From: Thermodesulfobacteriaceae bacterium
GTDB taxonomy: Bacteria > Desulfobacterota > Thermodesulfobacteria > Thermodesulfobacteriales > Thermodesulfobacteriaceae
Assembly: GCA_025062245.1 (NCBI GenBank)
Contig: JANXAD010000014.1
Span: 257 to 40,498 of the forward strand
DNA length: 40,242 nt
Direction of reading: 5' to 3'
Shown: positions 10,215 to 33,416 of the stretch, piece after piece
Layout: every line of letters starts with the position of its first letter
How positions within the stretch are numbered: position 1 is the stretch's first letter
Program-made: the position numbers and the translations under genes
Notes under the pieces: generated by a model
The model's input: only the letters and a program-made list of their open reading frames with translations
Database searches by the model: none
Told to the model about the DNA's origin: nothing

Positions 10215-10237
10215 TTGATTTAAAAGGAGGAAGATTT

Positions 10238-10462
10238 ATGAAAAAAAATATTCATCCTAAGTATTTTAGTGAGGCTACAGTAAGATGTGCTTGCGGGAAC
10301 GAGTTTAAGGTAGGTTCTACAAAGCCTGAAATAAAGGTAGAGGTATGTTCTAAATGTCATCCTTTCTTTACTGGAGAGAGTAGATTTGTAGATACAGAAG
10401 GAAAGATTGAAAAATTTAAGAAAAAATATGCTCAATTTTACGAAAAACAAATTTCAGAATAG
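10238..10462 (+). CDS. rpmE: 50S ribosomal protein L31 (zinc-binding form)
   Basis: The 74-aa protein has the C+ form of L31: C17 and C19 (VRCACGN) and C37/C40 ([11 protein letters not shown]) bind zinc. It begins MKKNIHP, as L31 proteins do. A strong Shine-Dalgarno sits 8 nt before the ATG. Zinc-type L31 can act as a zinc store; a zinc-free copy, if the genome has one, is not in this window. It is followed after 5 nt by prfA, a common arrangement. Confidence 0.97.
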
Positions 10463-10467
10463 AACCT

Positions 10468-11571
10468 ATGAGCCTATCTAAGTTTTATTTAACTAAATTA
10501 GATGCTATAGAAAAAAGATTTCAAGAACTTAGTGAGAAATTGGGAGATCCTTTTGTAATTCTCGATAGAAGTCTTTATGCTAAAATAGCTAAGGAACACT
10601 CTGAATTAGAGGAAGTAGTTAAAGCCTATCAAGAATATAAAAAAGCTCTTTTACAATTAGAAGAAAATAAAAAATTTTTAGAGATAGAAAATGATCCAGA
10701 ATTAAAAGAGCTTATAAAGGATGAAATTAAATCTTTAGAAGATAGGATAGAAAAGCTTGAAAAAGAACTTCCCTTAATTTTGCTTCCTAAGGATCCTAAG
10801 GATGAAAAAAATGTTATTTTAGAAATTAGAGCTGGGGCTGGTGGTGAGGAGGCAGCCCTGTTTGCTGCAGAACTTTTAAGAATGTATCAAAGGTATGCTG
10901 AAAGAAAGGGTTGGAAATTTGATATTTTAGATCTTAATGATACAGGACTAGGGGGTCTTAAAGAGGTAGTAGCCAAAATAGAAGGAAAAGGCGCCTATAG
11001 TAGGCTTAAATACGAAAGTGGAGTTCATAGAGTTCAAAGAGTTCCTATTACTGAAAGTTCGGGAAGAATTCATACTTCCACAGTTACGGTGGCAGTTTTA
11101 GCTGAAGTTGACGAAGTAGAAGTAGAAATTCGTCCTGAGGATTTGAAAATTGAAACTATGAGAGCCAGTGGTCATGGAGGTCAACATGTAAACAAAACGG
11201 AAAGTGCTGTAAGAATTACCCATCTTCCCACAGGAGTGGTAGTAACCTGTCAAAACGAAAGAAGTCAACACCAAAATAAAGCTACAGCTTTAAAAATTTT
11301 GAGAGCTAAACTTTATGAACTTTATCAACGAGAACAAAGTCAGAAAATACAACAAGAAAGAAGATCTCAAGTAGGAACGGGAGAGAGAAGCGAAAAAATT
11401 CGCACCTATAATTTTCCTCAAAACAGGGTAACAGACCATAGAATTGGATTAACCCTTTATAATCTTCCGGAAATTTTAGATGGTAGCTTAGATGAGTTTA
11501 TAGACCTTTTAATTACCCATTATAGAATTGAAGCTTTAAAAAAAGAAGAAGAGGCTATTTTAGCAGCTTAA
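10468..11571 (+). CDS. prfA: Peptide chain release factor 1
   Basis: RF1 ends translation at UAA and UAG. The 367-aa length is normal. The stop-codon reader region RVQRVPITE has the P-x-T tripeptide of RF1 (residues 193-195), not the SPF of RF2. The catalytic GGQ is at 237-239 in [19 protein letters not shown]. The residue before GGQ is histidine where alanine is more usual. It directly follows rpmE. The methyltransferase prmC often found next to prfA is missing here, and an Mth938-domain gene takes its place. Confidence 0.97.
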
Positions 11572-22124: not shown

Positions 22125-23681
22125 TTAAGAACTTTGTAAAAAATCTAAGATGACCTCTTCTAAAACTTGAGAGGATTCTTCCGTATCTAAAATTAATAAA
22201 GGATCACATTCTAAAGGGGGTTGGAACCTTTCCTTTTGAGCTAAATAAATATCCCAAAGAGCATCAGAAACGGTTCCTTCATAAATTCTTTGGTTTAATC
22301 TTTTTTTAACAGTTTCATCCTTAGCTCTACACCAAATCCAATAAATCTTTACGGAAAAATTCTTAAAGGTGTCTCTAACCCAATCTCTTAACTTCAAATC
22401 CCTAAAGGTGGCATCTAAAATTACATCTCTTCCAAAGCTTAACTCTTCCTTAGCTATTTCAAGCATTTTTTGATAGGTTTTTTCACTCATTTGGGGAGAG
22501 TAGATTCCCTTTTCAAAGGGAGCATAATAGTGTCCGTTTAATTCCAGATTAAGAAGCTTTTTTCTAACTACATCAGAAGAAACATAAACTGCTGGTCTTC
22601 TATCTAAAAGTTTATAAGCTAAAAAGGTTTTACCTGTACCCGAAAGTCCCATAAAAATAATTAATCTGGGAATCCCTCCTGCATAAAAATACGCTAAATC
22701 AAAATATTCTTGAGCTCTCTTTAAGGCTTCCTCTCTTTCTCTTTCGGGTACCTCAGAGGAAGCAAAGGTAAAACATCCTATTTTTCCACGAACATAGGCT
22801 CGATAGCACTTATAAAAATTTAGAAGCTGTAAAAGCTCAAAATCTTCACTTTTTTTGAGATAACCCTCTACAAAATAATCAGAAAGATTTCTATAGCGAT
22901 TAAAATCTAAATCCATAGCTAAAAAGGCTATATCTGAACAAACATCCCCACACCTAAATCTTTCGTTAAATTCAATACAATCAAAAATGTAAACCCTTTT
23001 AAAGTCTTCAAAGCATATATTGGCAGAGTAAAGGTCTCCATGTCCTTCTCTTATAAATCCTTCCTGGATTCTTTTCTCAAAAAGCCTTTTTTCTCCCTCT
23101 ATAAAACTTCGGGTATAGTTCACTATAAATTTGTATTTATCCTCACTTAAGGCTTTTCCTACAAAACCTATGGTCTGAGAAAAATTCTCTTCAGTATTAT
23201 AGGAAATAACCTCTAAGCTTCCATAATAATTAACCTTTTCTCCAGTTTGAGCTTCCTTATAAAAGGGAACCAAAGCCTCTACAATTAAGTCTATATGCCT
23301 TTCTGTTATCCTTTTTTCCCTTAAAAGCCTTACCATCATTCCTTCTTCAGGAAGCCTTTTCATCTTAACTGCATACTCTACTGGTTCACCTCTTCCCTCT
23401 ACCTTAAAAATCTCTCCCTCTTTAGTAATAGGTACTACTCCTAAGTAAAGGTCAGGGCATAATCTTCGATTTAACTCTACTTCCTTTTCACAAAAATACC
23501 TCCTCTTTTCTAAAGTAGTAAAATCTAAAAATCCAAAATTAACGGGTTTTTTAATCTTATAAACCCATTTATCTGTAATAAAAACATAAGAAATATGGGT
23601 TTGAACAACTTTCAACTCTTTAATAGGAAAAGAAAAGGAATTTAAAGAAATAGCTTCAGACCAAAAAATTTCCGAATTCAT
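22125..23681 (-). CDS. Two-domain kinase: aminoglycoside-phosphotransferase-like + P-loop kinase
   Basis: The 518-aa protein joins two modules. Residues about 30-330 resemble an aminoglycoside/choline-kinase fold, with HGDLYSANIC (214-216 HGD, catalytic Asp) and FDCIEF (D234, metal site) as in COG2187 proteins. Residues about 338-518 form an AAA-like/zeta-toxin-type kinase with P-loop GLSGTGKT (345-352) and SSDVVRKKL. Such fusions are widespread but their substrate is unknown; small-molecule phosphorylation is the family expectation, not antibiotic resistance. The ATG lacks a clear Shine-Dalgarno and sits 10 nt after a TAAAAT box. Confidence 0.82.
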   Translation of the reverse strand: MNSEIFWSEAISLNSFSFPIKELKVVQTHISYVFITDKWVYKIKKPVNFGFLDFTTLEKRRYFCEKEVELNRRLCPDLYLGVVPITKEGEIFKVEGRGEPVEYAVKMKRLPEEGMMVRLLREKRITERHIDLIVEALVPFYKEAQTGEKVNYYGSLEVISYNTEENFSQTIGFVGKALSEDKYKFIVNYTRSFIEGEKRLFEKRIQEGFIREGHGDLYSANICFEDFKRVYIFDCIEFNERFRCGDVCSDIAFLAMDLDFNRYRNLSDYFVEGYLKKSEDFELLQLLNFYKCYRAYVRGKIGCFTFASSEVPEREREEALKRAQEYFDLAYFYAGGIPRLIIFMGLSGTGKTFLAYKLLDRRPAVYVSSDVVRKKLLNLELNGHYYAPFEKGIYSPQMSEKTYQKMLEIAKEELSFGRDVILDATFRDLKLRDWVRDTFKNFSVKIYWIWCRAKDETVKKRLNQRIYEGTVSDALWDIYLAQKERFQPPLECDPLLILDTEESSQVLEEVILDFLQSS

Positions 23682-24160: not shown

Positions 24161-24189
24161 TTGACAAAAATTATTAAAGGATTAAAAAT
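24161..24189 (+). promoter_or_regulatory. Promoter of the sequon-repeat lipoprotein
   Basis: A perfect TTGACA (24161-24166) is followed after 16 nt by TAAAAA (24183-24188). A strong AGGAGGGAGAGG ribosome site follows about 20 nt later. Confidence 0.55.
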
Positions 24190-24225
24190 TATTAAACTTT
24201 AAAATTTTAGGAGGAGGGAGAGGCT

Positions 24226-24447
24226 ATGAAAAGAGTAATTTCCTTTATGTTAAGTTTGGTTTTAGCAGGAGTCATTGGATTAACGGCAGGGTGTAAAAAA
24301 GAAGAAAAGAAACCAGCTAACGCCACTGCTAATGTAACTAATGTTACCGCTAATGTAACTAATGTTACCGCTAATGTAACTGCTAATGTGACCGCTAATG
24401 TAACTAAAAACGCTACTGGTAATGTTACTAACGCCACCAAAAAATAG
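24226..24447 (+). CDS. Small lipoprotein made of Asn-X-Thr sequon repeats
   Basis: The 73-aa protein has a lipoprotein signal (residues 1-22) with lipobox LTAGC, so C23 should be lipidated. After a charged spacer (KKEEKKP) the rest is almost only N-V-T and N-A-T tripeptides: sequons start at N32, 36, 39, 43, 46, 50, 54, 58, 62, 66 and 69, eleven in 40 residues. The codons vary between copies (gta act, gtt acc, gtg acc), so selection on the protein is likely. It has its own promoter, strong ribosome site and terminator, so it is an independent and probably well-expressed unit. No known family is recognised. A surface glycoprotein anchor is my inference. Confidence 0.8.
   Translation: MKRVISFMLSLVLAGVIGLTAGCKKEEKKPANATANVTNVTANVTNVTANVTANVTANVTKNATGNVTNATKK
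24319..24438 (+). repeat. Sequon-coding tandem repeat
   Basis: Irregular units of 9 and 12 nt encode N-V-T/N-A-T. The only long exact duplication is a 21-nt unit encoding A-N-V-T-N-V-T, present twice between about 24331 and 24372. Confidence 0.8.
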
Positions 24448-24485: not shown

Positions 24486-24520
24486 AAAAAGGGGGGAGTT
24501 TTTCCCCCTTTTTTCTTTTT
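24486..24520. terminator. Bidirectional terminator between the lipoprotein and the repeat-tail gene
   Basis: AAAAAGGGGGG (24486-24496), a short T-rich loop, then CCCCC (24504-24508) and TTTTTTCTTTTT form a strong intrinsic terminator on the plus strand. Read on the minus strand the stem is also followed by TTTTT, so it can end both convergent genes. Confidence 0.85.
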
Positions 24521-24538: not shown

Positions 24539-25219
24539 TTATCTTCTAAAGTCTTTATTTTTATCCTTAAAATCTCTACCATCCCTATCCTTAAAATCTT
24601 TATCCCTATCCTTAAAATCCCTGTCCCTATCCTTAAAATCTTTATCCTTAAGGTCTTTATCTCTTTTACCCTTACTATGATACAATTTTTCGTTTATTAC
24701 CATATAATTTTTTTCTTTCTTTTTAAGATCTATAACTATCTTAGGGTCTTGATTATAGTATTCAGAAAAAAATTTTATCTGAGATAATTCAATAATATGG
24801 TAATCTTTTAAAATTATTTTTTTAGGAGGTTTCTTATAATGTCCGTAAGCCCTTCCATAGGGAGGACCATATACTATAATATATCTATGAAAAATCCTTT
24901 CTGGTTCTAAACCAAAACGAATCATAATTTCATACCAGGGTAAACCACCTCTTCTCAACTCAATAATTACATCAGGAGAAACACGAGCATAGCTTATGAT
25001 TAAAAAAAATAACGGTAACTCTTCATCTCTTATAATAGGATACCTTTTTTTAATAATTACTATTTCATCATAGGGGACACGGTAATATTCTCCCAGAGAA
25101 ACATAAAAATTGGTAATTCTACCATTATTTATAGAAACCCCTAAGTCTAAATTACTTCCTAAGGAATTAGAAGTAATTAAAAGGGTCATCAAAAAAAGTA
25201 AAAAAATTAACCTTTTCAT
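24539..25219 (-). CDS. Exported protein of unknown function with (K/R)DKDFKDRD repeat tail
   Basis: The start is set at ATG 25219 (MKRLIFLLFL), 8 nt after AAAGGAGG; the longer frame to 25267 has no ribosome site. The 226-aa protein has a signal peptide (about 1-22) and a middle region (about 25-165) with YYRVPYDEIVIIKKRYP and ARVSPDVIIELRRGGLPWYEI, patterns I associate with uncharacterised secreted proteins of sulfate reducers. A glycine/tyrosine segment (YGPPYGRAYGHYKKPPKK) follows. The last 45 residues or so are charged tandem repeats (KDFKDRDRDFKDRDKDF). No function can be assigned. Confidence 0.7.
   Translation of the reverse strand: MKRLIFLLFLMTLLITSNSLGSNLDLGVSINNGRITNFYVSLGEYYRVPYDEIVIIKKRYPIIRDEELPLFFLIISYARVSPDVIIELRRGGLPWYEIMIRFGLEPERIFHRYIIVYGPPYGRAYGHYKKPPKKIILKDYHIIELSQIKFFSEYYNQDPKIVIDLKKKEKNYMVINEKLYHSKGKRDKDLKDKDFKDRDRDFKDRDKDFKDRDGRDFKDKNKDFRR
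24545..24665 (-). repeat. Tandem repeat encoding the charged tail
   Basis: Units of 15, 21 and 24 nt, each starting CCTTAAAATC or a close variant on the plus strand, repeat about six times. Unit length varies in multiples of three, so the reading frame survives gain or loss of units. Confidence 0.75.
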
Positions 25220-25368: not shown

Positions 25369-26661
25369 TTAACTAAAAAGACTTTTTTGTTTAAAAAAGC
25401 GATTTTCTTCTGAGTTTGGGGTTCCCCAAATTTTTACTACTCCGTATTCTCCATCATAACCAGGTTTAACAAAAACCTCACCTTCTCTAACTCTTTTTAT
25501 AGCCTCCCAAACTTTAAAGGGAAGTTTTTTTTCTAAGGTCAATAGGTCTTCTTTTAAGAGGAGATTAAATTCTGTTTCAACACTGGAAATCAATTGAAAA
25601 TAAATTTTTTCTAAACTTTTTGAATTTTTAATTTCGAAGCATTCTGCCAAAATTTCCCTTAAAGGTACAAGATGAACAGAAAGAGGTTTATTTTCTGGAC
25701 AAAAATTTTCAGGTCTATCAGCTAAATTTTCTACTCGGTGAAGCACCCCTATGGTTAGGGAGCCACCACATTTAGGGCATCTATAGCCTAATTCTTTGGT
25801 TTCCTTAGGGGATAAACAAATTTTACAGCTTCTGTGCCCATCGTAATGATATTTACCTTCTTCAGGGTAGAACTCAATAGTAAAGGCTATTTGATTAGTT
25901 TTAATAGCTTCATAAACATTTTGATAAGAAAGGGGTTTAAAAAAGGCGGTAGCTTCTCGTCCAAGGTTAGAAGGTGAGTGGGCATCAGAATTAGAAACCA
26001 AAGCTACAGAATCTAACCAAGATATTCTCCAATTCATCTCAGGATCAGAAGATAAGCCTGTTTCAATAGCATATATAAAGGGGGTTGCTTCTCCAAAGGC
26101 TTCTTCTAAGGAATCAAAACCTGAGAAAGCTCCGAAAACAGAATACCAAGGAGTCCAAGCATGGGCAGGAATAATCAACACCTTTTCTGAAATTTTTAGT
26201 AAATCTAAAGTAAACCTTTCAGCAGAAATTCCAAAGGTTGGTCTTCCATCAGCTAAAAGATTTCCTAATTTGGAAAGATATAAATTGATTTCTTCAACTA
26301 TTTCAAAGGAAGGGGCAGTAAGAATTAGATGCATTCGACGATTATTAAGTTTTCCCTTAGAAAAAATTAAAGACACCTCTGCTGTGAGTATAAAATAAGG
26401 ACCCTCTGGAAATTCTCTACAATAGTAAAGCTCCTTTTCTGAACTGTATTCTAAAACTTCCTTAAGTTCTTTTAAATAAAGGGGATGGGTAAAATCTCCT
26501 GTTCCTATGAGGTCTAAACCTTTAATTTTTCCCATTTTAGCTATAGAGGGAATTTCCATTAATTTACTGCTGGCTCTACTATACTTAGAATGAAGATGAA
26601 GATCGGCTAAAAAAACCCTATCTAAAAATTCCTTAGAAGGAAATTTTTGATTCCTTTTCAT
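25369..26661 (-). CDS. Endonuclease Q-type PHP-domain protein
   Basis: The 430-aa protein has a PHP phosphoesterase domain beginning with ADLHLHSKYSRA (D20, H22, H24) and continuing with GTGDFTHP, PAHAWTPWYSVFGAFSGFDSL and SNSDAHSPSNLGREA. A Cys cluster (CKIC ... RCPKCGG, about residues 280-300) and a C-terminal region (VENLADRP ... KPGYDGEYG) follow. This layout is that of EndoQ, which nicks DNA 5' of deaminated bases (uracil, hypoxanthine) and abasic sites in Thermococcales and a few bacteria. A deamination-repair role fits a thermophile. It ends the long minus-strand gene series, 30 nt after the GGDEF gene. Confidence 0.82.
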   Translation of the reverse strand: MKRNQKFPSKEFLDRVFLADLHLHSKYSRASSKLMEIPSIAKMGKIKGLDLIGTGDFTHPLYLKELKEVLEYSSEKELYYCREFPEGPYFILTAEVSLIFSKGKLNNRRMHLILTAPSFEIVEEINLYLSKLGNLLADGRPTFGISAERFTLDLLKISEKVLIIPAHAWTPWYSVFGAFSGFDSLEEAFGEATPFIYAIETGLSSDPEMNWRISWLDSVALVSNSDAHSPSNLGREATAFFKPLSYQNVYEAIKTNQIAFTIEFYPEEGKYHYDGHRSCKICLSPKETKELGYRCPKCGGSLTIGVLHRVENLADRPENFCPENKPLSVHLVPLREILAECFEIKNSKSLEKIYFQLISSVETEFNLLLKEDLLTLEKKLPFKVWEAIKRVREGEVFVKPGYDGEYGVVKIWGTPNSEENRFFKQKSLFS

Positions 26662-32702: not shown

Positions 32703-33416
32703 TTACTTAAGCTCAACTACTAAAACCTTCTCTAACCCTAACTTGCTCTTAACTTCAGAGGCATACTTCTGAGCTTCCTCCTTAGAGGAGTATCTTCCTA
32801 CATAGACTCTATACCAGGTTTTTCCCTCTACGGTAGTCTTTTCAATCAGCGGATGATATCCCTTCTTAGTTAAAGTATCCTTAAAGGCTTCTACAGAATT
32901 AAGAGAAGAGAAAGCTCCCACTTGAAGGGTATAATAGGAGGTTTTATTAGAGACCTTCGGGCTTTCCTCCTCTTTCTTAATTACGGAAGCAATTTGAGCT
33001 ACCTCTTTTTTCTGATACTTAGTAGGTTCTTTCTGAGAAGTGGCTTCCTTAGAAGTCACCGCTTCCTTTTTAGCTACCACCTTATCCGGTTTATGAATAG
33101 CTACGGCATTAGTAGTAACATTAGAAGAGACATTGGAAAGAGTGGTAACATTATGGGAACTAACGTTAGAAGAAGGGGTAGTAACATTAGCTTGAGTCAC
33201 ATTAGAGGGTGTAAAGTTAGAGGGTGTAACATTGGAGAGAAGCTGAGCTTGCTTTTCAGTTGCTATCTCTATTCTTTCCCTTTTTCCTCCTATTTTACTT
33301 CCAATCCAAGCTCCAAAGATAAAGGTCCAGATGAGAAGACACAAACCAAAAAGAATAAGAAAAACTAAGGTTAACTTACTTAGTTCAATTTTGACCTTTT
33401 TTCCCTTTTCTTCCAT
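32703..33416 (-). CDS. SPOR-domain inner-membrane protein with sequon-rich linker
   Basis: This FtsN/DedD-like 237-aa protein has a short cytoplasmic start, one membrane helix (about 14-37), a periplasmic linker and a C-terminal SPOR domain (about 160-237: YYTLQVGAFSSLNSVEAF, RVYVGRYSSKEEAQKYASEV) that binds denuded peptidoglycan at the division site. The linker is unusual: N-X-S/T sequons start at N62, 67, 72, 77, 84, 89, 95 and 99, plus N157 near the SPOR domain. It then turns lysine/glutamate-rich. A GGGGGAGGT ribosome site precedes the ATG. It follows argS by 30 nt. Confidence 0.88.
   Translation of the reverse strand: MEEKGKKVKIELSKLTLVFLILFGLCLLIWTFIFGAWIGSKIGGKRERIEIATEKQAQLLSNVTPSNFTPSNVTQANVTTPSSNVSSHNVTTLSNVSSNVTTNAVAIHKPDKVVAKKEAVTSKEATSQKEPTKYQKKEVAQIASVIKKEEESPKVSNKTSYYTLQVGAFSSLNSVEAFKDTLTKKGYHPLIEKTTVEGKTWYRVYVGRYSSKEEAQKYASEVKSKLGLEKVLVVELK

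Follow-up and report, generated by a model that had tools for sequence, protein, structure and literature searches.

A lipoprotein tail filled with N-X-T sequons, a putative acceptor of N-linked glycans in the genus of Thermodesulfobacterium

What is the function of a small lipoprotein whose tail consists almost entirely of Asn-X-Thr tripeptides? Such a protein is encoded in the 40,242-nucleotide stretch of Thermodesulfobacteriaceae DNA analysed here (the window). The first-pass annotation of this DNA took the tail for a glycan scaffold, and our comparison with relatives supports that reading in three respects: Asn is confined to sequons (N-X-S/T), a sequon bias in the linkers and pilins of other proteins tracks the enzyme, and a gene for the enzyme is present. 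We therefore consider it probable that the protein serves as a spacer in the cell envelope, anchored by a lipid, with a disordered tail that accepts several N-glycans. The features of the locus are as follows.

24161..24189, + strand: promoter TTGACA-17-AAAAAT, from a motif scan; TTGACA lies upstream in 10 of 10 loci compared
24209..24217, + strand: ribosome-binding site AGGAGGAGG, from the sequence; similar in the 10 loci compared
24226..24447, + strand: gene of the 73-residue lipoprotein, an open reading frame from ATG to TAG with orthologues in relatives
24226..24294, + strand: signal peptide and lipobox LTAG-C (Cys23), from the sequence; the best-kept region of the family alignment
24319..24438, + strand: sequon array, 11 N-X-T in 40 residues (N32 to T71), from the sequence and shuffles
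24486..24514, + strand: intrinsic terminator of 13 pairs, from a terminator scan
24539..25219, - strand: predicted exported protein with a K/D/R-rich C-terminal tail, close to the lipoprotein in 12 of the 13 named loci compared
25369..26661, - strand: TIGR00375-like protein (under the cut-off of the model), near the lipoprotein in 13 of 13 named loci

The protein consists of the signal peptide with its lipobox, a short Lys/Glu stretch and the 40-residue array, and ends in Lys-Lys. Signal peptide, lipobox and Cys place it among the bacterial lipoproteins, with a similar motif in the orthologues, and Cys23 is the predicted site of lipidation. The count of 11 sequons in about 40 residues after this Cys, as first annotated, is correct: eight are NVT and three NAT, and all 11 Asn of the tail lie inside them. 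Upon 300,000 shuffles of the 50-residue tail, the maximum was nine sequons and 11 never appeared, whereas the mean in a separate set of 5,000 shuffles was 2.3. Composition alone was thus set aside as the cause of the density, since shuffles of both tails and linkers give far fewer sequons. The protein pattern is indeed constant over varied codons (Asn AAT 8 and AAC 3; Thr ACT 7 and ACC 4; Val GTA 4, GTT 3 and GTG 1). Part of the array is nevertheless a tandem repeat in the DNA, with a period of 21, 3.7 copies and 88% matches (24328-24407), so that the 11 sites do not represent 11 independent events. An antisense TTG reading frame of 77 residues on the opposite strand (24207-24440) was regarded as mirroring the repeat and set aside.

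The own promoter claimed for the gene is borne out by conservation. The promoter scan alone is near background, with six found against 3.2 ± 1.9 expected, but TTGACA together with a GGAGG-type ribosome-binding site precedes the gene in 10 of 10 loci compared (the window and nine others). Given such a strong promoter and ribosome-binding site, the lipoprotein is probably abundant. The terminator, called strong and bidirectional in the earlier reading, is strong on the plus strand, where it forms 13 pairs; the match on the minus strand is weaker, with six pairs (24508-24492). The TIGR00375-like gene sits at most about 2 kb downstream of the lipoprotein in all 13 named loci, and the exported protein has a homologue in 12 of them; the sample comprises 13 of the 14 named loci, with L054, cut at a contig end, omitted. 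The exported neighbour has no Pfam or NCBIfam match, and its C-terminal tail is built of repeated K/D/R/F units. On the other side of the lipoprotein, 22125-23681 (- strand) encodes a 518-residue protein with an AAA_33 kinase-like domain in its C-terminal part.

Orthologues of the lipoprotein were found in 17 of 41 relatives, own genome included, and a profile search of the order found it in 19 of its 41 genomes, distributed over three genera. The named carriers are T. hydrogeniphilum, T. geofontis, T. thermophilum, T. hveragerdense and Caldimicrobium. Conservation among the orthologues covers the signal peptide and the Lys/Glu start; most tails are of low complexity, rich in A, P, K, E and Q. 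We compared the tails of 17 copies in 16 genomes (two of them in G013), omitting L017/L171 at a contig edge and L020, a 27-residue frame cut at a contig end. All 39 Asn in these tails belong to N-X-S/T, compared to 6.2 expected by shuffling, although the orthologues share ancestry and the counts are not independent events. N-P is absent from the 17 tails. Leaving out the window species and its sister, which has nine sites, 19 of 19 tail Asn are still in sequons, at an S/T background of 5%. Asn is present in 11 of the 17 tails, in the form of NQT, NVT and NES in different species, and outside the window pair X is V, Q or E; most of the other relatives have 0 to 7 sequons per tail. Small sequon-bearing lipoproteins in relatives, for which the first-pass annotation had proposed to search, are hence found in three genera. 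The other six tails have neither sequon nor Asn, though the enzyme is present in those genomes, which indicates that the basic role of the lipoprotein does not need a glycan. As the tails of relatives work without or with few glycans, the array is best seen as the expansion of an acceptor unit in a freely varying tail.

Two orthologues recovered later, L174 and L179, contain one and three sequons, respectively, and no other Asn. In the L017/L171 copy of T. thermophilum (positions 1-266; 84 residues, starting 15 bases from the contig end) the single Asn lies outside a sequon; adding these three proteins gives 43 of 44 Asn in sequons. The end of this copy matches the end of a small secreted protein of L053, possibly owing to a fusion or an assembly join. 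A weak match, G000:C88 (36% identity), lies inside a sequon-rich pilin rather than a lipoprotein and was rejected as an orthologue.

The ends of the tails bear on a second reading, which is compatible with glycosylation: an L,D-transpeptidase would couple the C-terminal Lys to peptidoglycan, with the glycans as a secondary decoration. Braun lipoprotein (Lpp) is a short lipoprotein with a C-terminal Lys, and 14 of the 17 tails likewise end in Lys, the other three in H or Q. All 26 genomes searched contain YkuD transpeptidase genes, the own genome two, and together with the Lys-ending tails these genes make an Lpp-like link to peptidoglycan possible; YkuD proteins, however, are widespread and serve further roles besides tethering. 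The promoter elements common to the 10 loci compared would suit such a protein, yet the lipoprotein matches no family, Lpp included, in a search of Pfam and NCBIfam at E 0.001. On balance, we regard a peptidoglycan tether as unlikely, but as the most serious of the alternatives.

N-glycosylation would require an oligosaccharyltransferase, and the first-pass annotation had counted the lack of a pglB/STT3-like gene in the genome, along with an unmodified peptide, as grounds against its proposal. The own genome, a 1.63-Mb draft that belongs to the genus of Thermodesulfobacterium, contains a single STT3-family match, a transferase gene of 694 residues (L001:1393-3474). Its Pfam matches, PF21436 (E 1.9e-10) and PF02516 (E 4.1e-10), are both above cut-off, with the STT3 N-terminal and STT3-PglB core domains scoring 40.2 and 41.8 bits against cut-offs of 24.5 and 23. 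In a single-sequence search of the PDB at E 0.001, the PglB structures 3rce, 6gxc and 5ogl, which we take to be those of Campylobacter lari, were the sole matches (best E 2e-11), and PglB structures were again the best in a profile search (9e-29). The WWDYG motif, the acidic motifs EYD and LDxD, an SISE at the position of the TIXE Glu and the GxRF motif align with these structures and are invariant across the 11 transferase sequences aligned (A3). The roles we assign to WWDYG, the acidic metal motifs, the TIXE-type Glu and the GxRF Arg are presumably those known in general for such enzymes. The enzyme is distant from the PglB equivalog model NF050801, to which it matches partially with 53.3 bits, compared to a cut-off of 1300. 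With sequons above chance and an enzyme gene in the same genome, the lipoprotein qualifies as a predicted N-glycoprotein. Within 4.1 kb around the transferase, the three other reading frames of at least 100 residues are, judged by eye, unlike glycan genes. A Bac_transf gene (PF02397) occurs once in the own genome, but it is common and proves little.

The acceptors lack the acidic residue at position -2, which is found in none of 39 tail sequons and in one of 66 SPOR linker sequons. Correspondingly, the position of C. lari R331 is a gap in the single-sequence alignment and has a non-Arg consensus in the profile alignment; the absence of Arg at this position fits acceptors with no acid at -2. 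Ollis and co-workers point out, though, that an R331-type Arg does not necessarily govern the minus-two rule (PMC4894442). The same paper describes a Desulfovibrio gigas PglB for which AQNAT is about as good an acceptor as DQNAT, and an N-glycosylated site with no acid at -2 in D. gigas HmcA (PMC4894442).

An STT3 match was found in all 17 lipoprotein-carrying genomes. Among the relatives, 23 of the 25 genomes with an STT3 match were scored as having the enzyme; the other two, G027 (a match in a 169-residue frame that exceeds the cut-off solely together with its frame neighbours) and G036 (below cut-off), were scored without it. The comparison of these groups in a second protein of the window, a membrane-anchored FtsN-like protein, is the strongest of our tests on independent proteins.

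32703..33416, - strand: TM-anchored SPOR (FtsN-like) protein of 237 residues (Pfam SPOR E 7e-19; FtsN model below cut-off)
33105..33233, - strand: sequon-rich periplasmic linker of the SPOR protein, eight N-X-S/T in 42 residues, by sequon count

Of the 39 genomes with a SPOR match, 30 were covered by the linker comparison. In 18 transferase genomes, all from the three genera in which the lipoprotein occurs, 68 of 78 linker Asn are in sequons, compared to 13.7 expected. In contrast, the seven genomes of other families scored without the transferase have one of six in sequons, with 0.8 expected, in a control that is small and includes G027 with its partial STT3 match. G011, a genome of the own genus that is 70% complete and in which no enzyme was found, was kept apart; grouping it with the genomes scored without the enzyme gives two of seven Asn in sequons, against 70 of 80 in the enzyme group. 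In four genomes of the genera g4 and g5 the enzyme is present and the linkers have just two Asn, both in sequons. In the 18 genomes, S/T occupies position +2 of linker Asn in 68 of 77 cases, against a background of 19%, and about 16-28% of the other positions, except +1 (3 of 77) and -1 (39 of 77). The excess at -1 is seen in the SPOR linkers of L075-L091 and L093. Thr exceeds Ser in the linker sequons (54 versus 14), though the linkers contain 163 Thr and 169 Ser overall, and Thr over Ser is a known preference of this class of oligosaccharyltransferase. N-P is absent among the 78 linker Asn, despite a Pro content of 11%.

These linkers also weigh against a simpler reading, in which a hydrophilic, extended tail suffices without any sugar and the N-V-T-A units are a neutral expansion of DNA that replaced P-A-E-K repeats. 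Such a history would account for the period-21 repeat inside the array, for the wide divergence of the tails and for the lack of Asn in six of 17. Neutral drift, however, would place Asn in any context, whereas sequons contain all 19 Asn found outside the window pair, and both the +2 peak and the Thr preference recur in the SPOR linkers, which are less repetitive; an unglycosylated spacer thus appears improbable. Least probable is another modification, such as O-glycosylation of Thr, or the binding of a metal or ligand by Thr or Asn: to our knowledge O-linked systems have no requirement for Asn at -2, yet here it is Asn, followed by S/T at +2, that shows the bias, and N-P is absent from the tails and from the linkers of the 18 genomes. 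O-glycosylation was set aside as the main explanation, though low-complexity regions of Neisseria lipoproteins are O-glycosylated (PMC9239064).

Pilins display the sequon bias less sharply than tails and linkers. The 46 motif-picked pilin-like frames, in 30 loci, were used with their paralogues, some identical entries and what may be minor pilins among them; the 32 frames from enzyme genomes contain 120 sequons compared to 50.4 expected, and the 14 frames from genomes scored without the enzyme contain 24 compared to 21.5. Among 813 reading frames in 809 kb of the own genome, a density of at least six sequons in 42 residues was reached only by the lipoprotein, the SPOR protein and one pilin. 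Disordered exported segments contain 23 sequons against 9.2 expected, 20 of them from two proteins. For all exported reading frames the excess is weak, with an observed/expected ratio of 1.14 (59 "sec" frames) versus 0.97 for cytoplasmic ones; the classes follow hydropathy rules, simple gene calling mis-started a pilin that was classed as cytoplasmic, and the lipoprotein's own frame is absent from the exported list behind these two ratios. Taken together, the restriction of Asn to sequons in diverging tails, along with a linker bias and a weaker pilin bias unseen in relatives scored without the enzyme, makes glycosylation the best explanation.

Sequons were also seen in further exported proteins. 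Two adjacent type IV pilins (L073:9729-10178 and 10233-10655, - strand) have six and five. A 54-residue secreted protein (L116:1917-2081, + strand) contains NATANATTNAT, and its relatives have KKKKAEGC-type ends with a terminal Cys; every member of this family that was read (six of seven, L129 being left out) has one to three NAT. In T. hveragerdense, a 74-residue secreted protein (L053:6264-6488) that contains a single NAT and terminates in KKKVEGC adjoins the lipoprotein. A short lipoprotein-like frame (L062:18277-18642, - strand; NISCKKEEK) has NQT and NRT near each other.

We propose that the lipoprotein would be expressed from its strong promoter and ribosome-binding site, exported by Sec and then lipidated at Cys23. 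The single PglB/STT3-type transferase would then move a lipid-linked oligosaccharide onto the Asn of N-X-T, with no acid required at -2, although at a spacing of 3-4 residues some sites may stay unoccupied. The glycosylated tail would thereby form an extended, hydrated, sugar-coated envelope brush or spacer. Most relatives have a tail of the Ala/Pro/Lys/Glu-rich linker type, which the window species and its sister would have filled by expansion of the sequon unit. The transferase probably serves a general glycosylation system, with the FtsN-like SPOR linker, pilins and the small secreted protein as further targets. At slightly less than even confidence, we extend this to Thermodesulfobacterium and its close kin as a whole: general N-glycosylation would coat the disordered envelope linkers of the Lpp-like lipoprotein, the FtsN-like division protein and pilins, and the lipoprotein would be a naturally occurring bottlebrush of as many as 11 N-glycans in 40 residues, with sugars in place of the Pro/Ala/charged repeats of sister species. 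By our own reasoning, an Asn whose amide carries a sugar may also be protected from deamidation at high temperature.

A search of the open-access literature found no report of N-glycosylation in Thermodesulfobacterium. If the present reading is true, a thermophilic lineage joins the bacteria with N-linked protein glycosylation, and the comparison with relatives suggests such sugars on flexible parts of several exported proteins in these heat-loving sulfate reducers, among them the linkers of envelope and division proteins. It would also provide a natural dense acceptor with its own acid-independent, probably heat-stable transferase, and the role of bacterial N-glycans could be tested in orthologues with 0 to 11 sites.

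Compared to known systems, the lipoprotein shares with Braun lipoprotein its short length and C-terminal Lys (KK in the window, K in 14 of 17 tails), but differs in a low-complexity tail that lacks the Lpp helix. The thread of Sulfolobus acidocaldarius is likewise a densely N-glycosylated surface protein of a thermophile, with five N-X-S/T sites per subunit (PMC9715654). It differs as a folded archaeal filament subunit, with AglB as the enzyme. Engineered DQNAT-type tags also add sequons to a protein as glycan acceptors (PMC4894442); these are man-made, whereas the present array is natural, with 11 sites and no acid at -2. The Campylobacter and Desulfovibrio PglB systems share an STT3/PglB enzyme and N-X-S/T acceptors, with a relaxed -2 position as in D. 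gigas PglB (PMC4894442); the present enzyme differs in its score (53 versus 1300 bits) and in a residue other than Arg at the R331 position, and its acceptor has many sites in one tail. The nearest working analogue appears to be Lip and Laz of Neisseria. Their AAEAP pentapeptide repeat was not found in the window tail, and their glycans are O-linked on Ser (PMC9239064), in contrast to the predicted N-linkage at N-X-T in an unrelated sequence here. Lip and Laz are described as poorly glycosylated in N. gonorrhoeae and as strongly reactive with the N. elongata enzyme (PMC9239064). As here predicted, they are lipoproteins whose low-complexity repeats can be glycosylated by a general oligosaccharyltransferase (PMC9239064).
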